From: Deltaproteobacteria bacterium
GTDB lineage: Bacteria > Myxococcota_A > UBA796 > GCA-2862545
DNA length: 42,249 nucleotides
Assembly (NCBI GenBank): GCA_007693595.1
Contig: REDI01000040.1
Coordinates: 1 to 42,249, forward strand
Direction of reading: 5' to 3'
The notes beneath the pieces are model-generated. The model made no database searches. It was not told the DNA's origin and saw only the letters and a list, made by a program, of their open reading frames with translations. Positions 1,551-30,675 of the stretch are shown piece by piece. The position numbers were made by a program, and so were the translations under genes. Numbering within the stretch: the first letter of the stretch is position 1; every line of letters begins with the position of its first letter.

Positions 1551-1583
1551 ATGTGACGCATAGTCCGTGGACGCATCGTCTAC
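1551..1583 (+). promoter_or_regulatory. C-box operator of the restriction-modification controller
   Basis: Two imperfect palindromes, GACGCATAGTC (1555-1565) and GACGCATCGTC (1570-1580), are spaced 15 bp apart with GTG between them and ATGT in front. From memory this closely matches the tandem operator of the Esp1396I/PvuII class of C proteins (GACT-N3-AGTC-like halves around a central GTG). In such systems the left box activates and the right box represses. The position fits, overlapping the expected -35 of a short or leaderless transcript starting just before ATG 1603. Confidence 0.8.
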
Positions 1584-1602
1584 ACCAGGCGATGGTCTCA
1601 GG

Positions 1603-1845
1603 ATGAACAAGGAAGAAGTCCAGCGAGCGTTCGGTCAGCGTGTGCGAGAAGCCCGCCTGACTCTGGGTGTCACTCAGGAGGAGTTGGCGCACCAGGCCGG
1701 GCTTGACCGGACCTACGTGAGCATGGTTGAGCGTGGCGTGCGGAACGTGACGTTGTGGAACATCTATCGCCTCGCTGAAGCACTGAATCTGGACCCTTTC
1801 GTTCTCTTCAAGGAGAGTCCAGATGGCGCTCAAGCCGACGAGTGA
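1603..1845 (+). CDS. restriction-modification controller (C) protein, Xre-type HTH
   Basis: An 80-residue DNA-binding protein that times endonuclease expression after the system enters a new host. Nearly the whole length is a five-helix Xre HTH: RVREARLTLGVTQEELA leads into the recognition region GLDRTYVSMVERG, followed by RNVTLWNIYRLAEALN, the usual C-protein layout. I start it at ATG 1603, because the upstream in-frame GTG at 1567 falls inside the operator itself. No strong Shine-Dalgarno precedes the ATG, which is common for leaderless C transcripts. It overlaps the endonuclease gene by 23 bases, so the two are co-transcribed and coupled. A generic Xre repressor is the alternative, but the adjacent C-boxes and the R and M genes make that unlikely. 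Confidence 0.9.
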   Translation: MNKEEVQRAFGQRVREARLTLGVTQEELAHQAGLDRTYVSMVERGVRNVTLWNIYRLAEALNLDPFVLFKESPDGAQADE

Positions 1846-2872
1846 GCAGCACGCCGCACAGATCGCAGCCGGAATCAGCGGGCGGAATCGAGGTCACAAG
1901 TTCGAGAAGGCACTAACATCGGAGATCAACGAGATGGTGCTGGACCATGTAGCGCCGCCGCCGATCGACCACCCGCACCTGATGACGGGCGACCCCGCAG
2001 CGTTGCTCGTTGGGTTCGTGAAGCGGGAGGAGGGATTCGCCGATGGAACGACGGTGGAGGCCTACTGGTTGGGCGGATTGGCTACCTCTGGCGAGGGCGA
2101 CGAGCTTCGAGACTCGAGTGGTAACCTCGTGACTGGCAGCAAGAGCGACGTGCTGCTTCGATTCACCCTGCCGGACGGCTCGGAAGAGTGGCGTGGCGTG
2201 TCCGTGAAGACCTGCTTCAACGCGACGCCGACGAACGCGCAGTTGTATTGCAGCACCGCTGTCGCGTTCTGCGGGCTCTTGCGGAGTCGAGGGTTGACGG
2301 TGACCGCTGACCAGGAGGTTGCCCTTCGACGGTTCTGCGGGGATCCTGGCTACCGTCCACAGGACACCGGAGACGACGTCGGTCGCTCGTCTACCCCGGA
2401 GAGGTGGTTCTGGGAGGAACTGGCGGAAGAGGCCCGCAACGACTGGGAGCGGCTTTTCACCGAGCATCACAGGGACGTCCTGCTAGCCCTCTTGAAGTAT
2501 GCCTACGAGGGTGATGCCTTTCCGCCCGACTACCTGCTCCACCTGAGGCATAAGGGTGACCCCGCTCCTGTAGCTCTCTACACCATGGACCAGATCGCCG
2601 ACTTGAGCGTTGCCTATGGGTCTTTCTCGACGCGCAACTACAAGGTCCACAAGGGCCGCTACAAGTCCGATCCGCACCAGCATCAGGCCCCACGCTTCGG
2701 TATCGTGCAGTTCCAGCCTCTCGGGAACAAGCAGAACAGAAACCAGCTGCAGTTCAACCTACAGGCGCGGTACTTCGACAAGGTTCCCTACGAGGTTGAG
2801 GAGGACCTTGCCGACGGCAACGCCGCCCAGGGTCCGTCTTCAGCAACTGCTAGTGAGGCAAGTGGGTCTTGA
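1823..2872 (+). CDS. type II restriction endonuclease, PD-(D/E)XK-like
   Basis: A 349-residue protein placed exactly where the endonuclease belongs: downstream of and overlapping the C gene, and convergent with the methyltransferase. Visible signs of the nuclease fold are an N-terminal helix with GHKFEKALTSEIN (Glu28), then SKSDVLLRF (Asp109), a hairpin, and GVSVKT (Lys129). The usual Glu of the ExK pair is Ser127, a variant known in some families. AAGGAG at 1810-1815 sits seven bases before ATG 1823. The C-terminal 40 residues are Gln/Asn- then Ala/Ser-rich. Its 3' end overlaps the methyltransferase 3' end by 23 bases. The recognition sequence cannot be read from the protein. Base composition looks less GC-rich than flanking genes, consistent with transfer. 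Confidence 0.8.
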   Translation: MALKPTSEQHAAQIAAGISGRNRGHKFEKALTSEINEMVLDHVAPPPIDHPHLMTGDPAALLVGFVKREEGFADGTTVEAYWLGGLATSGEGDELRDSSGNLVTGSKSDVLLRFTLPDGSEEWRGVSVKTCFNATPTNAQLYCSTAVAFCGLLRSRGLTVTADQEVALRRFCGDPGYRPQDTGDDVGRSSTPERWFWEELAEEARNDWERLFTEHHRDVLLALLKYAYEGDAFPPDYLLHLRHKGDPAPVALYTMDQIADLSVAYGSFSTRNYKVHKGRYKSDPHQHQAPRFGIVQFQPLGNKQNRNQLQFNLQARYFDKVPYEVEEDLADGNAAQGPSSATASEASGS

Positions 2873-4445
2873 TGTACCCGGCGAGCGCTTCTGCGAGTAC
2901 GGGAGGCACGGCGTTGCCGATCTGCTTCCGAACGGCACCCGTCTTCCCCTTGAGCTGAAAGTCGTCAGGAAAGGACTGGCAGCGCATGGCTTCACGAATC
3001 GTGAGGCTTCGCGTGTTCGTGGGATGCACCGTTCGACATGCCGAGATCATGCCGAAGGTGGTGCCGATAGTGGATGATGGTTCATCCCATCGCAGACGCT
3101 TGTAGGTGGTGTTGTAGCCAGAGGGAGGCCTCAATGCCGGGTCCTCGTTTTCGTGGGCGCTGTGTCCCTCGGGAACCACGCGGAGCATCTGGAGCACGTG
3201 CTCAGGATGCGAGACGGCCCAGTGGTACTCGTCGTCTGGGGCGCGCTCTCCCGACTCAAGCGATGGGAGGTCTCCGGTTGCGTCCCGAAACGACCTCCAC
3301 ACAGGCTTCGAGAAGAGGCCCCTCTGGGTTCCATTGGACCCCACAGGCGAATGGGTTGGAGCAGGGAACCACTTTGAAGGCGGTGCCAAGTCCTGTCGGT
3401 AGCCCAGGAAGAAGACGCGCTCACGACACTGTGGTACGCCGTAGTCGGCTGAGTTGAGGCATGACCACTGCGCGCGGTAGCCGATCTTCTGCAGCTGCTC
3501 GACGATCTCATCGGCGACAAGACCACCACTAGGGTTCTTCATCGAGGTCAGAAGGCGGACGTTCTCGATGAGGATGGCCTTGGGTTGAAGCTGCTCGGCG
3601 ATTTCAAGGTAGCGCATCACCAGGCGATTTCGAGGGTCGTGAACGTCGCGCTTGCCAGCCAAGCTGAAACCTTGGCAGGGTGGACCGCCGATGAGCACCG
3701 CCACTTCACCAAACTCGCGACGCCACTGTGCCACCGTGTCTCGGCTCACTTCCGTCACGTCTGCGCCGAGGCAGACCGACGTGGGGAAGTTGTGGGCGTA
3801 GGACTCGCGTGCGTTTTCGTCGAGTTCGATGAACCCTGCGACATCGAATCCGGCGCGCCTGAAGCCTAGGGACATCCCACCGCAACCAGCGAACATCGCC
3901 AACGCGACGGGCGCTCCTCCATCCTCGTCAGAGCGCCTGAGCGACGGACGCTCGAGGCCGCGTGACCGATTCAGGAACGCGACGTGATCAGCTGGGTGGA
4001 CCTTCTTCCGGCGACGCGCGCGTTTCGGCTTGGGCTCCTGGCCAGCGCTGCGCTTCTCCGCCCAGTTTCGAAGGCGGATGCCCTCGGGAATAGAGCCGGA
4101 CTCCACCTCAGCGATCACGGATGCGATGGCCTTGACATGGCCTGATTGAAGTTGGCGCTTACCAAGTTCATGAGCCGAGATCAGCGCCTGGGTGACGCCG
4201 CTGGAACGAGCCAGGTTCGCCTGACTCATGCCATGGGCCTTTCGCCAAGCTCGCAAGACCTCCCCGTTCCTGGCGACGTCAACCCCCGAAACTGGCTCGG
4301 TGGATGGGCTGGCGGCTGCTCGTGGTCCGTTCATAGATGGCTCCATAGCCTCTCGGTTGGTTTCCGGGTCCGTGCCCGCCGGCTTGGCGAAATCGATTTC
4401 ATCGACCACTCTACCCCCTTCCTCCACGCTGTTTCGGAGCATCAT
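2850..4445 (-). CDS. DNA cytosine-5 methyltransferase with N-terminal HTH
   Basis: A 531-residue enzyme that protects host DNA by making 5-methylcytosine from S-adenosylmethionine. Residues about 61-96 form an Xre-like HTH (VLRAWRKAHGMSQANLA...LISAHELG). The catalytic part spans about 178-531: motif I MFAGCGGMSLGF, motif IV GGPPCQGFS with nucleophile Cys257, motif VI IENVR, motif VIII QCRERVFF and C-terminal motif X GNAVPP. All key residues are present. The target-recognition region is about 350-470. ATG 4445 has no good ribosome site; GTG 4409 follows GGAGGAAGGGGG and may be the true start. M.SsoII/M.EcoRII-type enzymes use such an N-terminal HTH for autorepression, so this gene may be controlled separately from the C-R operon. 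The 113 bases upstream (4446-4558) must hold its promoter. Confidence 0.95.
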   Translation of the reverse strand: MMLRNSVEEGGRVVDEIDFAKPAGTDPETNREAMEPSMNGPRAAASPSTEPVSGVDVARNGEVLRAWRKAHGMSQANLARSSGVTQALISAHELGKRQLQSGHVKAIASVIAEVESGSIPEGIRLRNWAEKRSAGQEPKPKRARRRKKVHPADHVAFLNRSRGLERPSLRRSDEDGGAPVALAMFAGCGGMSLGFRRAGFDVAGFIELDENARESYAHNFPTSVCLGADVTEVSRDTVAQWRREFGEVAVLIGGPPCQGFSLAGKRDVHDPRNRLVMRYLEIAEQLQPKAILIENVRLLTSMKNPSGGLVADEIVEQLQKIGYRAQWSCLNSADYGVPQCRERVFFLGYRQDLAPPSKWFPAPTHSPVGSNGTQRGLFSKPVWRSFRDATGDLPSLESGERAPDDEYHWAVSHPEHVLQMLRVVPEGHSAHENEDPALRPPSGYNTTYKRLRWDEPSSTIGTTFGMISACRTVHPTNTRSLTIREAMRCQSFPDDFQLKGKTGAVRKQIGNAVPPVLAEALAGYIKTHLPH

Positions 4446-19169: not shown

Positions 19170-20251
19170 GCAAGGCCGACGTCGCGACGCGCTTGATCCC
19201 CGCCTCGGAGCGCCCATTGGGGCTAGCCCCCCTGGCTTGCCCAACGTGCGACCGTTCCTTCCTCGGCCCGGAGCGCGGCCGCCGCTGCCCGGCTTGCGCG
19301 ACCGAGCTGGAGTGCAGCGAGGTGCGACTCCCCGTGCATGACCCCGATGAGCTCGTCCCTCTCCGCGTCGATCGAGAAGAGCTGAGCCGGCGCCTCGACC
19401 TCTTCCACAAGCGAGGCTGGCTGCGGCAGCGCACGAACCCAGCGGACGCCTTGGCCGAGGTGGCGGTGCTCGTCTGGTGGCCCCGCTGGCTCGTCGGCGC
19501 AACCCTACGTTCGGCATGGAGCGCCGAGGTCGGATTCAACTACCAAGCCCAATCCACAGTGGAGTACTATAAGAAAGGTCGCTGGCGGAGCATCGAGTAT
19601 ACCGAGGACCGCGTCCGCTGGGAGCCTCGGGGTGGCACCCTGGATCGTCGCTACGAAGACGTGCAGATCGAAGCCCTATTCCGGGCGAAGGTCCCCTCCG
19701 CCCTGCTGGGACCGGAGCCCGGGGCCGTCCCCTTCACCGCCAGCGGACTGCAACACGGCTTGATCCTGCTCCCCGATCGCGATCCCGACGAGGTCTGGGC
19801 CGACGTGGTGCCCGCCTTCCGCGACCGCGCCACGACCGAGGTCATGACCGCCACCATGAGCGACCATGTGCGCAGCCTGCACCTCGCCCCCACGTTTCAA
19901 GAGGAACGCTGGAACGTGCGCCTGCATCCCTCGTGGTGGATCAAGACCGGGACGTCGAAGAGGCCCCGGATCCTTCTTGTTGACGGGGTCACGGGCAGGG
20001 TCTTCGGCCCGTACTACACCTCGATGGCCCTCGCATGGTGGCTGAGTTTGGGGATCGCCACGGTGGCGTTCGCGGTGCTGGGGCTGACCGTCGTGCTCAT
20101 CCTGGCCGGGATCGTGCTGCCCTTGCTCTGGCTCTTGGTGCCCTTCACAGGATTCGCTTCGATGCTCCTCTTCATCGTAGCGATCCCGCCCCCGATAGCG
20201 GCTTGGTTTCGCAACCGAGGGCAGCGCAAGCTGCTCGCTCAGCTCCCCTGA
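19166..20251 (+). CDS. zinc-ribbon membrane protein (paralogue 2)
   Basis: A 361-residue partner of the preceding protein, starting at ATG 19166 in an ATGA overlap. It has one ribbon (CPTCDRSFLGPERGRRCPAC, about 24-43). The same middle plan follows: VLVWWPRWLVGATLRSAWSAEVG parallels the PFWTFEATARTRWSALVG segment of its neighbour, and WNVRLHPSWWIKTG...PRILLVDGVTGRVFGP parallels WRYVLLPVYVGAY...NIVVNGQTG. Two long hydrophobic spans end the protein before a short basic tail. The pair probably arose by tandem duplication and diverged by losing one ribbon; they may form a complex. The role is unknown. Its last 13 bases overlap the convergent lipoprotein gene. Confidence 0.75.
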   Translation: MSKADVATRLIPASERPLGLAPLACPTCDRSFLGPERGRRCPACATELECSEVRLPVHDPDELVPLRVDREELSRRLDLFHKRGWLRQRTNPADALAEVAVLVWWPRWLVGATLRSAWSAEVGFNYQAQSTVEYYKKGRWRSIEYTEDRVRWEPRGGTLDRRYEDVQIEALFRAKVPSALLGPEPGAVPFTASGLQHGLILLPDRDPDEVWADVVPAFRDRATTEVMTATMSDHVRSLHLAPTFQEERWNVRLHPSWWIKTGTSKRPRILLVDGVTGRVFGPYYTSMALAWWLSLGIATVAFAVLGLTVVLILAGIVLPLLWLLVPFTGFASMLLFIVAIPPPIAAWFRNRGQRKLLAQLP

Positions 20252-20835
20252 AGCTCGGAGTCTTCCACCTCGACCCACTCCGCGCTGACCGCGCCCGCAA
20301 AGTCGAACGGAAGCTCGGGACGAGTCCAAGGGTCGCGATCCGTCTCGTCGCAGGAGTTGACGCAGCAGTCGGGGACCCGCGTGGTGCTCCGACCCTCAAA
20401 GCGCAGCGCGATGCCCTGATCGTCGAAGCGATCGATCCGAACGCGTGCCATCTCGCCCATCTCAAGTGCGCAAGCACGTTCGTAAGGCACCCCGAGGTGG
20501 CAGTGATCCCCGTGGGCCTCGTCGATGATGCAGGTCACCTTGGCAGGCACGAAGCCCGTGACGGCATCGATCCGCAGCGGCGCGCTGCTGCTAGAAGCAG
20601 GAACTTCGCCTTCAATCGTGGCGGTAGTACGCTCCCAGCCGAAGTCTACTCCAGGGACTTGGACGTCGGCCATGATGCGGAAGGTGGTTCCTCGACCGGA
20701 GTCCATGCGGGTCGCCACCCCCTCCGCGCAGACCTCTTGGCCCTCCACCTCTACGCAGAGCTGGTTTCTTCCTACCTCATCTTCACCATAACTCCAGCCA
20801 CAACTCGACGAAAGGAGCAACAGAATCCAGCGCAT
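20239..20835 (-). CDS. Cys-containing lipoprotein of unknown function
   Basis: A 198-residue predicted lipoprotein: MRWILLLLSSSC puts the lipobox Cys at position 12. The mature part has paired cysteines (LCVEVEGQEVC, CIIDEAHGDHCHLG, DCCVNSCDE), probably disulfide-bonded in the envelope, and a beta-rich look. I use ATG 20835, which has GGAG six bases upstream; an ATG at 20847 contains that ribosome site. It is divergent from the His-rich lipoprotein gene, with less than 90 bases between the starts, an AT-rich stretch that must hold both promoters. No family recognised. Confidence 0.65.
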   Translation of the reverse strand: MRWILLLLSSSCGWSYGEDEVGRNQLCVEVEGQEVCAEGVATRMDSGRGTTFRIMADVQVPGVDFGWERTTATIEGEVPASSSSAPLRIDAVTGFVPAKVTCIIDEAHGDHCHLGVPYERACALEMGEMARVRIDRFDDQGIALRFEGRSTTRVPDCCVNSCDETDRDPWTRPELPFDFAGAVSAEWVEVEDSELQGS

Positions 20836-20921
20836 TCGAGTCTCCATTACATTGCCTTTGCTATTGTAACTCCATTGCGTTACCTCGCCACCGCAACGCT
20901 ACTCAACCCATGGAGGACATG

Positions 20922-21347
20922 ATGTCACCAAAGAACCTTCTGATGATCGCGCTACTCTTTCCCGCGTGCGGGGACGGGCTGGGGGGCATCGGAGACCCGT
21001 GCGAGACCGAAGATGACTGCGAAGAGGGCCTGGAGTGCCACCTCCACGGTGGGGTGATGGAGTGCGACGAGCCGCATAGCCACAGCCACAGCCACAGCCA
21101 CAGCCACGGCAGCGACAGCCATAGCCACAGCCACAGCCACAGCCACGGCAGCGACAGCCACACCCACGGTAGCGACAGCCATGGCCACGGTAGTGGAAGC
21201 GGCCACGACAGCGACAGCCATGGTCACGGCAGCGGAAGCGGCCACGACAGCGACAGCCATGGTCACGGCAGCGGAAGCGGCCACGACAGCGACAGCCATG
21301 GTCACGGCAGCGGAAGCGGCCACGACAGCGAAGACACCCACGACTGA
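20922..21347 (+). CDS. His-rich repeat lipoprotein, probable metal binder
   Basis: A 141-residue predicted lipoprotein. MSPKNLLMIALLFPAC gives a lipobox Cys16. Next comes a Cys-rich segment, GDPCETEDDCEEGLECHLHGGVMECDEP, of the type found in many myxobacterial surface proteins. From about residue 51 to the end it is almost only His, Ser, Gly and Asp: first SH dipeptides, then four copies of a 13-residue unit (SHGHGSGSGHDSD). Such tails bind Zn, Ni or Cu in other systems, so metal storage or delivery at the envelope is a reasonable inference. GGAGG at 20912-20916 is five bases before ATG 20922, which is why I prefer it to ATG 20910. The tail is unlikely to fold without metal. Confidence 0.75.
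   Translation: MSPKNLLMIALLFPACGDGLGGIGDPCETEDDCEEGLECHLHGGVMECDEPHSHSHSHSHSHGSDSHSHSHSHSHGSDSHTHGSDSHGHGSGSGHDSDSHGHGSGSGHDSDSHGHGSGSGHDSDSHGHGSGSGHDSEDTHD
21177..21332 (+). repeat. 39-bp tandem repeat, four copies, inside the His-rich lipoprotein gene
   Basis: Four in-frame 39-bp units encode the 13-residue His/Gly/Ser/Asp repeat. The last three are nearly identical at the DNA level (CATGGTCACGGCAGCGGAAG...), pointing to recent slippage. A CACAGC microsatellite precedes them at about 21070-21150. Confidence 0.85.
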
Positions 21348-26949: not shown

Positions 26950-28527
26950 TCACGAGGCCGGAGAAGCCGGAGGACACGACAGCGACTGCCACACTCGGCT
27001 GAGTCCACTCAAGGTCGCCTTGCGAATAACGATGACCTCGTCGCTGAAGGCCTCCACGCCGGCCGCGCCCCTCGGACCGACCACGACGGTCACGACACGA
27101 ACATCGCGCGCTTCGCGCTCCCTTCGGACCGACTCGACCACCGTGGGCAAGGCCGCCGCCTGACCATCGGTCAGCACCAGAACGTCAGCGTGGCGAAAGG
27201 ACTCGGTGGCAACCAGCTCCAGGGCGCGAAGGAGAGGCCCGTCGAAGTCGGTGCCACCGTCGAAGGTCAGGGCCAGCGCATCCAGCAGTCCGTCGACGGC
27301 CGCGCGGCCCCGCCGCAAGTGCCGCTCGAAGCGCTGGCCCCGACCGCCAAACAAGAGGAGGTGCAGCTCACGCCCCTGCCGTAGGACGCGGCGAGCCACG
27401 GCGAGCAGGAGGGCCTTGGCGACCCACTCCGGCTCCCCCTTCATGCTGGCCGAAGCATCGATACAGGCGATAACCGGCCCGCGGCTGGTTCGGGTCGCGC
27501 TCCCGTCGAGGCCCCGCCCAGAAAGCTCCAGGCTGATCAGCCGACGCTCCGCCCATCGCGCGTAGAAGAGGTCCTCGGTCTCGGGGCTGGCGAGCAGACC
27601 CAGCTCGGAGGGGAGCGCCCGCGCAACCTCGCCCGAGGCCGAGACGCCGACCACCTCCTCGCCACCGCCATGTTCGAGCCCACGACGCGCCACCTCGGCC
27701 TCGGCGCGGCCGAGGGTATCCGCCAGCTCGACGATCTGGGGAGACCGCTCCAACAGCGCTGCCAACCGGGGAAGGTCGCGGTTCACGCGCCGCTGGAGCG
27801 CACCCGGCGACAGCGACCATCCCAGACCGGGCAGCGCGCTCTGGAGCGCTTGCAGGAGGGTCGATGTCTGGAGGACGACGTCCCCCGCCAGTCCCACCAC
27901 CCGCTCGATCCGCGCAGCCCCGTCCGCTCCTTCAAGCAGGGCGTGAAGCGCCCCAGCCTGTTCGAGGACGTCCGTCGCCTCGGGCGACGACGTAGGGGCC
28001 TCGTGCTCCTCGGGGCGCGGCTCCGAGGACTCCGGCTCGCCCCCCTCACGCTCGGTCGAGGAGGAGCGCTCGGGCTCCGGCGCAGAGGGCTCCGGCGCAG
28101 AGGGCTCCGGCGCAGAGGGCTCCGGCGCAGAGGGCTCCGGCGCAGAGGGCTCCGGCGCAGAGGGCTCCGGCGCAGAGGGCTCCGGCGCAGAGGGCTCCTG
28201 CGACGGCGACTCCAGCTGTGGATCGCGGGATGGCGCGGCGCTCTCACGCTCCTCGATCATCGAGAGCCAAAGCGAGACGGCCGCGCGGACCGCAGCCTGG
28301 ATCGCGAGCGCGGGGCGCTGCTGACACACCGCGCGGACCGGCGCGAGCTCCAGCGCAGCGACCCGCACCACCACCGAAGCCAAGGCGCCAAGCTCCGAGC
28401 GGTCCGCACCCAGAAACCAGCGCGCGAGGTCCTCAGCAAAGACCTCGGCCTGACGCTGCTCTGTCGACGTACGACCCAGACCTTCGAGGTCAGGGTGGTC
28501 GCGCAGCTCGAGCTCAGGTGAGAGCAC
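26950..28527 (-). CDS. VWA-domain protein, ViaA-like partner of the adjacent AAA+ ATPase
   Basis: A 525-residue cytosolic protein. The C-terminal von Willebrand A domain (about 345-525) has a complete MIDAS: DASASM at 357-362, the Thr-type residue in FDGGTDFDGPL, and LVLTDGQ. Residues 112-151 are eight PSAPE copies, forming a stiff Pro/Glu linker, then a Glu/Ser-rich stretch. The region 180-330 is helical, like the ViaA middle. In E. coli RavA-ViaA the VWA protein serves as adaptor for a MoxR AAA+ ATPase; here the same pair occurs, and this GTG start overlaps the ATPase stop by 14 bases. The ViaA role (fumarate reductase/complex I maturation) may not transfer. Confidence 0.85.
   Translation of the reverse strand: MLSPELELRDHPDLEGLGRTSTEQRQAEVFAEDLARWFLGADRSELGALASVVVRVAALELAPVRAVCQQRPALAIQAAVRAAVSLWLSMIEERESAAPSRDPQLESPSQEPSAPEPSAPEPSAPEPSAPEPSAPEPSAPEPSAPEPSAPEPERSSSTEREGGEPESSEPRPEEHEAPTSSPEATDVLEQAGALHALLEGADGAARIERVVGLAGDVVLQTSTLLQALQSALPGLGWSLSPGALQRRVNRDLPRLAALLERSPQIVELADTLGRAEAEVARRGLEHGGGEEVVGVSASGEVARALPSELGLLASPETEDLFYARWAERRLISLELSGRGLDGSATRTSRGPVIACIDASASMKGEPEWVAKALLLAVARRVLRQGRELHLLLFGGRGQRFERHLRRGRAAVDGLLDALALTFDGGTDFDGPLLRALELVATESFRHADVLVLTDGQAAALPTVVESVRREREARDVRVVTVVVGPRGAAGVEAFSDEVIVIRKATLSGLSRVWQSLSCPPASPAS
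28073..28192 (-). repeat. eight perfect 15-bp minisatellite units inside the VWA gene
   Basis: GGCTCCGGCGCAGAG is repeated eight times without change on the plus strand; on the coding strand it specifies PSAPE. Perfect copies suggest recent expansion and likely length variation between strains. Confidence 0.9.
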
Positions 28528-30607
28528 GCACGGGATCCGGGTGTGGGATGACGGTCGTTCCGAGGATCCGGCTCAGCTCCGGCAGGGCGGCGTCGACCAC
28601 GCGCCGTTGCTTGGTGCTGAGCCCTGCCAGCAGAGGAGCCCAGGCGCGCTCTTGGGCGATCAAATCGAGCCAGTCCTCGACGCGAAGCTCGAGGGTGCAG
28701 GCGCTCGACGGCGCGACCGAGGGGAGCTGCCGCCACTGGCGGTACGCGAGGCCGATGGAGCCGATCTCGCCTATCGTGAAGACCGCGTCGAGGTGTTCGG
28801 CTCGCAAGCGCTCCTCGAGGGGCAGCAGGCCGATCAGATCCCGCGCCAGAGCCTCGGGGGTCGACAGCCGGGCGGCGTAGGACTCGACGGCTTGGAGGAT
28901 CCGCGCCATGGCCTTGGCAGCGCGCAGATACGGGAGCACGATCTGCGTGGGTAGCTCACGGATCCACAGCCGATCGCCGTGCTCCGACATCGCGCGCTCC
29001 CGCGCCGCCGTGAGGGAGGCGACCCCGACCGCATGATGGGCCCGAAGCCGGGCGACGCTCCGCTGCCGAAGCGCGAGGCGGGGGCGCCAGCCCGAGGGGG
29101 GATCTCCCAGGGGGACCGGATCGTCGCGGGTGGGCGCCACCCGGTCGGCTGCGAGCAGAGCCCACTGGGCTTGGAGGGACTCGTGGGGCGCCAGGCTGAG
29201 CTCGACCCATCGAGGCCCCGAAACCCCTGGTCCCCCCGCTTCGATGACGTCGAGCACCGACTCCTGGATCTCGCCCGAGCGCTCGGGATCGGCCGACAGA
29301 CAGTTCGTGAGCAGCAACAGGTCTACCGGGCCCACCTGAGCGCGACCCTCGCTCGCTGCCGCGACACGAAGGAGGTGCACCGCTTGGCGCCAGCGACGGT
29401 CCGAGACCTGCCACTCGCCCCGCTGCCCCCGCTCCCACAGGGCCACGAGGGCCGAGGCGACCCGATCCGGCACCAACACCCTGCTCGCTTGATCACGGAG
29501 CTCCCGGACCTCGTCGAGCGTCAGGCGATCTGGGGGATCGAGGTCGACCTGACCGACGCGTCCGACCGCGACCTTGAGGAAGCCCTCGGCCTGGGACACC
29601 GGCGGCACCATCACCCGCACGAGGAAGCGATCGAAGAGCGCCTCGAGGCCCGCGCCTGCCTCGGGCAGCTCGTTGGAGGCCCCGATCAAGCCCAGCAGCG
29701 GAACCGGATCCCGGTGCTGACCGTGGTGAAAGACCCGCTCGTTGACCAGAGTGAGCAGGCTGTTGAGGATGGCGGAGTTTGCCTTGAAGATCTCGTCGAG
29801 GAAGGCCACGTGAGCTCTCGGGAGGAAGCCCTGGGTGAGCCGACGATAGTCTTCGTTCTTGAGGCCGGGGATGCTGACCGGGCCGAAGAGCTCATCGGGG
29901 TGGGTGAACCGAGAGAGCAGGTACTCGAAGTACGAAGCGCCATCGAAGACCTGGCAGAGCGACCGCGCGAGCAGGCTCTTGGCCGTGCCCGGCGGTCCGA
30001 GCAACAGCGCATGCTGACCCGCCAGCAGCGCGAGCAGCACCGCCCGCGCCTGAGGCCCCCGCTCGACCAGGGCGTGATCGAGGGCCTCGAGGATACGCCG
30101 GAGCTTGTGGGTGATCGGAGGGAGGGGCCGCTCGTCGGGTCGGAGCTCAAACGATGGGGGCGCGCCCGAGAGCCAGGCGCGCGCGGCGGCCTCGTCAGCG
30201 GTCTCGCGAGCCAGGGCCCGCGGATGGGCGCGGGCCAGCCGGGAGAGTTCCTGGAGCCAACGATCTCGGGCCTCGGCCTGCTCGGAGAGCACCTCGCGGA
30301 CCTCGGCCCACGCCCCCACCCTCGCGGCCAGATCTTGGAGGTGGACCCCAGGATGGACGTCGAGGGTACCATCGGGGCGGAGCCGCGCTACCCCGGTTCG
30401 GGTGACGAGTCCGACAAGACCCAGCGCCCGCGCCCGCCCCAGCCCCATCGAGGCGCGGGCCCAGCGCGCATAGTGGTCCACCGAGAGCGGTTCTTCACGC
30501 GAGAGCTCGATCAAGCCCGACAGCGCCTCGATCACGGAGGAGGGATCGGGAGGCAACAGCGCCGCCCCGTCCACCCGTGTCACCCCATCGACCTCGGTCC
30601 ACCGCAT
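28514..30607 (-). CDS. MoxR-family AAA+ ATPase, RavA-like
   Basis: A 697-residue ATPase, longer than typical MoxR (about 320) and RavA (about 500). An extra N-terminal part of about 170 residues looks helical. The AAA+ core follows: Walker A GPPGTAKS (204-211), Walker B VAFLDEI (267-273), and the family hallmark region ANSAILNSLLTLVNERVFHHG. Sensor GASNELPEAGAGLEALFDRFLVRV and a C-terminal region of about 300 residues complete it. I use ATG 30607 with AGGGG upstream rather than GTG 30616. Overlap with the VWA gene indicates a stable pair. The C-terminal and N-terminal extensions are not recognised; substrate unknown. Confidence 0.9.
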   Translation of the reverse strand: MRWTEVDGVTRVDGAALLPPDPSSVIEALSGLIELSREEPLSVDHYARWARASMGLGRARALGLVGLVTRTGVARLRPDGTLDVHPGVHLQDLAARVGAWAEVREVLSEQAEARDRWLQELSRLARAHPRALARETADEAAARAWLSGAPPSFELRPDERPLPPITHKLRRILEALDHALVERGPQARAVLLALLAGQHALLLGPPGTAKSLLARSLCQVFDGASYFEYLLSRFTHPDELFGPVSIPGLKNEDYRRLTQGFLPRAHVAFLDEIFKANSAILNSLLTLVNERVFHHGQHRDPVPLLGLIGASNELPEAGAGLEALFDRFLVRVMVPPVSQAEGFLKVAVGRVGQVDLDPPDRLTLDEVRELRDQASRVLVPDRVASALVALWERGQRGEWQVSDRRWRQAVHLLRVAAASEGRAQVGPVDLLLLTNCLSADPERSGEIQESVLDVIEAGGPGVSGPRWVELSLAPHESLQAQWALLAADRVAPTRDDPVPLGDPPSGWRPRLALRQRSVARLRAHHAVGVASLTAARERAMSEHGDRLWIRELPTQIVLPYLRAAKAMARILQAVESYAARLSTPEALARDLIGLLPLEERLRAEHLDAVFTIGEIGSIGLAYRQWRQLPSVAPSSACTLELRVEDWLDLIAQERAWAPLLAGLSTKQRRVVDAALPELSRILGTTVIPHPDPVRALT

Positions 30608-30675
30608 CGCGCACACCCCTGGCTACCTGCCGGATCATCCCAACGCCCCTATCGTACTCGCGGGTCGCCTGACAC

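Follow-up and report, generated by a model that had tools for sequence, protein, structure and literature searches.

The window analysed here, i.e., the whole stretch of 42,249 nucleotides of DNA, belongs to a Myxococcota draft genome (4.9 Mb in 97 contigs). It encodes a His-rich lipoprotein (HLp) that stands alone, apart from any transporter gene, and is separated by a 74-bp gap, in which a putative operator sits, from a divergent gene for a second lipoprotein (Table 1). An alternative in-frame ATG for HLp lies at 20919, and a ribosome-binding-like sequence is found 5' of both possible starts. A scan of the HLp locus for sigma-70 promoters and terminators found none.

Table 1. Coordinates of the features at the HLp locus (positions in the window)
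Feature	Position	Strand	Basis and remarks
Divergent lipoprotein gene, 202 aa (lipobox LSSSC; motif AHGDHCH)	20239..20847	-	Shares the putative operator with HLp
Putative Zur-type operator TATTGTAACTCCATTGCGTTA	20862..20882	.	39 bp before HLp, 14 bp before the divergent gene; matrices from relatives
Ribosome-binding-like GGAGG	20912..20916	+	Sequence
HLp gene (His-rich lipoprotein)	20922..21347	+	141 aa plus stop; ORF listing, relatives
HLp signal peptide MSPKNLLMIALLFPA	20922..20966	+	Sequence, family alignments; lipobox LFPAC
HLp four-Cys mini-domain (C27, C33, C39, C48), CH motif GLECH	20985..21071	+	Alignments, structure prediction
HLp His/Ser/Gly/Asp tail	21072..21344	+	Composition; predicted disordered, block pLDDT 45-67
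First HLp repeat array, HSHSHSHSHGSDS type	21078..21167	+	Tandem Repeats Finder: period 39 bp, 2.3 copies, 94%
Second HLp repeat array, HDSDSHGHGSGSG type	21164..21331	+	Tandem Repeats Finder: period 39 bp, 4.3 copies, 96%, score 301

The protein, its tail and its repeats

An earlier note on this DNA had described a His-rich lipoprotein whose last 90 residues are almost only His, Ser, Gly and Asp, and the open reading frame, the lipobox and the composition of the tail all bear this out. The lipoprotein signal can be read from the predicted signal peptide, which runs into the lipobox LFPAC, and from its conservation, in the sense that the lipidation-site Cys16 (codon 20967-20969) is invariant in 12 of 12 aligned family members and A15 is kept in at least 90%. 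Residues 21-50, around the four Cys, are predicted to be ordered (pLDDT about 90), unlike the rest of the model. From Pro51 onwards the tail comprises 91 residues, namely 30 Ser, 26 His, 19 Gly, 12 Asp and only 4 others, and the mature protein as a whole contains 28 His in 126 residues, with 15 HxH motifs, which suggests that HLp may bind zinc. Searches against Pfam gave no family above the cut-off (the sole match, Nodulin_late, falls below it), those against NCBIfam no usable match, and those against the PDB sequences none at E up to 10.

The same note had called attention to near-identical 39-bp DNA repeats, and two period-39 arrays are indeed present in the tail, with three consecutive units identical over 39/39 positions. 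Since 39 bp correspond to 13 codons, the gain or loss of copies would keep the frame, and slippage is plausible given such identical in-frame repeats; the copy number as assembled is uncertain, since the assembly is a draft broken into 97 contigs. Among the family members compared, the length and composition of the tail are very different between species, which fits fast change and falls short of demonstrating slippage. The antisense ORFs that run across the repeat are taken as by-products of it.

Elsewhere in the window, two 31-bp tandem arrays (860-943 and 1031-1118, with 2.7 and 2.8 copies) lie near genes (1567-4445) for an HTH protein, a 349-aa protein that matches no Pfam family and a C5 cytosine methylase carrying an HTH of its own; these probably constitute a restriction-modification system with a control gene. 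On the minus strand, 26950-30616 encodes a bpMoxR ATPase and a VWA/CoxE protein, a system of the MoxR-vWA type, and a 15-bp repeat of 8.7 copies (28072-28202) encodes a Pro/Glu/Ser/Ala run in the VWA protein.

Relatives of HLp and their gene neighbourhoods

Distant relatives of HLp occur in other genomes of the Myxococcota. With the protein as query, matches were obtained in 8 of 58 related genomes, its own included (E up to 0.001). Profile searches matched 15 of 63 genomes at the order level (E up to 0.001), 13 of 71 at the class level (1e-5) and 21 of 377 at the phylum level (1e-6; at most 16 candidates scored per genome), the weakest profile matches including generic four-Cys lipoproteins without a His tail. 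The same-genus genome G001 gave no HLp match in either the protein or the profile searches. A pattern-based contig search from the single protein found no HLp; querying with the alignment led to 7 loci. Two contigs of one genome (G029:C29 and C51) are apparently identical in sequence, and the HLp tables include them as a single entry.

In the 12 aligned members M1, C16, G24, C27, D32, C33, L37 and C39 are invariant and A15, G21 and H40 nearly so, and the family signature behind the lipobox is C-x4-DC-x3-L-x-CH (C..DC..GLECH). The HLp of the window carries it, so that its family membership, too, can be read from the alignment. The CH of GLECH is kept in 10 of the 11 other aligned members, and all 11 have His in the mature part, with 3 to 11 residues (5-18%) versus 28 (22%) in the window. 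Most of the eleven are rich in Asp/Glu instead, with shorter tails of His/Glu/Asp; as the tails of the relatives are short and acidic-His, the extreme Ser/Gly/His tail is peculiar to the source genome among those examined. In two distant homologues (L112, on G362:C71, and L120, on G364:C18) DVH replaces the CH motif, and the fourth Cys is followed by EPHGHG or EPHDHG, a point in which they are closer to the HLp of the window; in neither does the 3 kb scanned contain an operator site of 18 bits. In a further relative (L027, from G006, HLp start near 4426) a TAG occurs shortly past the lipobox on a low-coverage contig, reflecting either a pseudogene or a sequencing error.

An all-against-all BLASTP of the ORFs of the window and of 11 relatives' loci identified a TonB-dependent receptor, a second His-rich lipoprotein and a Fur-family regulator (PF01475) as recurring partners of HLp, with CobW, MerC and a flavoprotein gene also present in these loci. 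The receptor of L030 has the PF07715, PF00593 and PF03544 domains, with an N-terminal TonB_C domain, and resembles ZnuD at 65 bits, far under the model cut-off of 950 and with other receptor models scoring higher. The second lipoprotein of the relatives has an N-terminal DHDHHDHEHE run and belongs to no Pfam family. The relatives' TonB receptor, used as query in a search without a positive control, gave no match in the source genome.

In the other 376 genomes (at most 8 candidates scored per genome) the divergent lipoprotein of the window has one clear homologue, in G014 (34% identity, with AHGDHCH), and a third, weak match (G214) contains stops. The G014 homologue is likewise divergent from HLp with an operator between both genes, and the gaps on the divergent gene and HLp sides of this operator are 10 bp and 41 bp, versus 14 bp and 39 bp in the window. 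This common layout is a strong sign that the predicted operator of the window is real, and it makes the divergent lipoprotein a candidate second zinc protein. The structure prediction of the divergent lipoprotein was too poor for a fold search (mean pLDDT 45.6).

A putative Zur-type operator and a candidate regulon

The earlier note had proposed looking for a Zur or NikR site nearby, and a putative Zur-type operator does precede HLp. The pattern GCAA-N5-TTGC was derived by eye from two HLp upstream regions (L003 and L007). Its exact form is found in 7 of the 11 relatives' loci scanned, with 9 sites in total. Among these are sites before TonB receptors (L030, L034 and L036) and sites in the gap that separates HLp from a neighbouring gene, which is a TonB receptor in L033, MerC in L028 and a divergent lipoprotein in L031. 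The window has 7 places in its 42 kb that fit the pattern with one mismatch, and one of them, at 20866, is inside TATTGTAACTCCATTGCGTTA (20862-20882). A degenerate pattern was written after seeing the window site, and its 0 mismatches there therefore carry no weight. Two matrices do not include the window site. With that of the 9 relatives' sites, whose left-out training sites score 23.4-33.5 bits, the window site reaches 23.2 bits and ranks first of 42,229 positions (next, 6.7 bits), a score that one in 20,000 dinucleotide-shuffled versions of the 74-bp gap attained. With a second matrix, built from 12 sites not directly before HLp, it is again first, at 24.4 bits (next, 10.9); these 12 were chosen from 20 hand-picked regions, and one of them comes from L121, a locus with an HLp gene of its own.

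Sites of 20 bits or more lie within 300 bp of 6 of 11 HLp genes (the window, L033, L028, L031, L032 and L121). Two others (L034 and L030) have no near site but are placed behind a same-direction TonB receptor that has one, and L029 shows the same gene order on a contig that begins inside the receptor. The remaining two (L035 and L036) have neither an operator within 300 bp nor an operator-bearing receptor leading into them. An HLp from outside the class (L110) has an operator just before it; that locus had been grouped with the background ones in error. The proposed regulation of HLp is supported by sequence.

What else would such an operator control? Over 14 genomes the pattern gave 109 strand matches versus 27 for the reversed control, where palindromes can count on both strands, and 20 regions were hand-picked from these matches. 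Behind the operator they contain CobW genes (L136 by Pfam; L121 and L137 by eye), TonB receptors (L124, L126 and L128 by Pfam, the last from the same-genus genome; L131 and L140 by eye), MerC (L123 and L131), the second lipoprotein (L123 and L129, by eye), a Fur-family gene (L140) and DUF1826 (L122); in L121 a second HLp stands behind the operator with CobW adjoining. Five regions (L125, L133, L134, L135 and L138) have no recognisable metal gene behind the site. Inspection by eye points to an ABC ATPase in L139 and to a frame resembling a P-type ATPase in L132, so not every match is a zinc site. The ABC ATPase gene of L139 (2856-3581, minus strand; G071) looks similar to one in L110 (1-513, minus strand; G364), both directly behind the operator, and they recall the Zur-regulated ABC-2 system of Caulobacter. 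In addition, similar-looking proteins of about 155 aa without a Pfam family lie near the operator in two genomes (L122:172-645 and L130:1840-2307, both on the minus strand), in L122 with the DUF1826 gene on the other side, and they are candidates for a zinc-starvation family.

In the source genome the degenerate pattern, with up to 3 mismatches, gave 10 matches at 7 places versus 3 for the reversed control, and the operator is shared with genes of known zinc-related kinds. Apart from the window site, those with high scores are as follows: one lies 12 bp before the start of a CobW GTPase (C42:4081, 26.1 bits), another between a TonB receptor and a lipoprotein plus ZIP-like gene (C69:17105, 25.4 bits; the ZIP match is under the Pfam cut-off, 22 v. 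35.1 bits), and a third about 180 bp upstream of a flavoprotein (C64:12788, 28.7 bits). The matches in C33, C53 and C61, with 3 mismatches each, were disregarded, being probably noise. In the C69 locus (L076:2197-6198 of G000) the TonB receptor has a His-containing N-terminal stretch and is divergent from the lipoprotein, of about 270 aa, and the ZIP-like gene; with the operator between them, this is a probable zinc uptake locus of the source genome. A similar-looking lipoprotein is found behind an operator in the same-genus genome (L127). A ZnuA-like gene of the source genome was considered as a further target and rejected, as no operator was found for it; its product is a ZnuA-family protein (L077:3802-5994, minus strand, on G000:C8; PF01297, 93 bits), and it adjoins, by eye, a MacB/FtsX-type permease, an odd pairing.

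As for the regulator, the source genome encodes two Fur-family proteins. One of them, G000:C89:53696, is of the subfamily found in the relatives, being 36-46% identical to six of their regulators, five of which are encoded in HLp loci and the sixth by a gene preceded by an operator; its identity to the second Fur protein of the source genome is 28%. Its PF01475 match scores 53 bits, and its best solved match is Fur, with the Zur structures lower; for the regulator of L030 the best match, a weak one, is 3mwm, described as a putative metal uptake regulation protein. Since the source protein resembles the solved Fur proteins more closely than the solved Zur ones, the metal it senses is one that we infer.

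Zinc, the proposed role and known systems

Which metal would this switch respond to? In PMC545781 (Rodionov et al. 2004), the ZUR box predicted upstream of znuABC-zur in two genomes of Desulfovibrio is ATGCAACNNNGTTGCAT. Several operator sites found here differ from this consensus, itself a prediction, at 0 to 2 positions. The window site has 4 mismatches in 14 against this strict consensus, and three other places in the window are equally good; the zinc-operator proposal for the window site rests on the matrix of the clade and not on the Desulfovibrio consensus. The partner genes have also been linked to Zur elsewhere: COG0523 GTPases, ZIP and DUF1826 in the available parts of PMC2770081 and PMC5786701 (where MerC is not seen as a zinc gene), and TonB receptors plus a CobW-domain protein in Caulobacter, in that of PMC4176598. 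Zinc is the most likely metal, because the operator type matches the Desulfovibrio ZUR prediction and the partners are Zur-linked elsewhere. The metal role attributed to the lipoprotein in the earlier note is in this way well supported, for zinc in particular, by the putative Zur-type operator and the neighbouring genes, evidence that is independent of the amino-acid composition.

We consider it likely, on these grounds, that HLp is a zinc-binding envelope lipoprotein induced by zinc starvation. When zinc is plentiful, a Fur-family regulator (with G000:C89:53696, of the subfamily encoded near HLp in the relatives, as the best candidate) would sit on the operator and keep HLp and the divergent lipoprotein off; when zinc is low, both would be made, lipidated and placed in the envelope. 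The His residues of the flexible tail would hold zinc loosely and pass it to an uptake path formed by the TonB receptor and ZIP-like protein of C69 and the CobW-type GTPase of C42, and the 39-bp repeats would let the number of these sites rise or fall in frame. It is the binding, the location and the delivery of zinc that we infer in this scheme.

The tail could instead act as a zinc buffer or sponge with a storing or protecting role, outside any import path, and be made at low zinc since spare envelope sites then stop zinc from diffusing away. The isolation of the window HLp from transporter genes and its 26-His tail without a predicted ordered site are in line with this, yet the HLp of the relatives adjoins TonB receptors and CobW genes, which points to uptake, and a protein that did nothing but soak up zinc would, if made under a starvation operator, work against uptake; we regard the sponge as a rather unlikely alternative. 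Somewhat less likely still would be that the regulator and HLp serve nickel, cobalt, copper or iron, sensed by a Fur-family protein. The Streptomyces Nur nickel box is TTGCAA-N5-TTGCAA, nickel and copper are bound well by His-rich tails, and the source Fur-like protein, with Fur as its best solved match, is not recognisably Zur. Against another metal, the operator is of the type predicted for ZUR before Desulfovibrio znuABC (PMC545781, in its available part), and the partners, i.e., ZIP, CobW (with some similarity to ZigA), the receptor (with some similarity to ZnuD) and DUF1826, are the zinc set of the available text of PMC2770081 and PMC5786701. It would be even more surprising if the tail were neutral low-complexity sequence, an (HS/SGHD)n made by slippage without selected metal binding: its repeats are identical at the DNA level, disorder is predicted and the mature parts of the relatives manage with 3 to 11 His, but His is found in the mature part of all 11 other members, the CH of GLECH is kept in 10 and the expression seems tied to a metal operator.

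The role in zinc starvation that we favour can be extended, speculatively and with considerable doubt, to a lipoprotein in which in-frame 39-bp slippage would set how many zinc sites there are. It would then be a metal buffer of adjustable capacity, controlled by a Zur-type switch and accompanied by the divergent lipoprotein that shares its operator. If this were true, the envelope zinc capacity would differ among strains of one species. More generally, a candidate Myxococcota zinc regulon is now testable, comprising the operator, the regulator subfamily, the TonB receptor, MerC, CobW, the ZIP-like protein, DUF1826 and two lipoprotein families, and a likely role is given to the HLp family, which has no Pfam match above the cut-off.

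With regard to known systems, no described Myxococcota zinc regulon was found in the available text of the literature searched. The Zur regulons of Caulobacter, Francisella and the gamma- and beta-proteobacteria have the same partners (TonB receptors, COG0523 GTPases, ZIP and DUF1826) behind a Zur palindrome, according to the available parts of PMC4176598, PMC5786701 and PMC2770081, whose regulon descriptions, in those parts, contain neither HLp nor the second His-rich lipoprotein; they differ in the operator, which is here of the type predicted in Desulfovibrio (PMC545781, in its available part). Membership of HLp in the Pht, ZinT or ZnuA families was rejected, as their Pfam domains are absent and there is no PDB match. 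ZrgA and ZnuA-type proteins are likewise extracytoplasmic zinc proteins, ZrgA serving zinc acquisition as far as the available text goes, but they are folded solute-binding proteins of ABC importers, a domain that HLp does not have. The nearest functional parallel is PhtD/AdcAII, where a His-rich protein located outside the cytoplasm shares an operon with a zinc uptake protein: according to PMC3842936, PhtD scavenges zinc and passes it to AdcAII. The Pht proteins are, however, streptococcal surface proteins with folded HxxHxH units, whereas in HLp, a lipoprotein, a four-Cys mini-domain is followed by an (HS/HG)n tail predicted to be disordered. Our verdict is that the HLp family is new but of an already known kind, within a zinc-type Myxococcota regulon.
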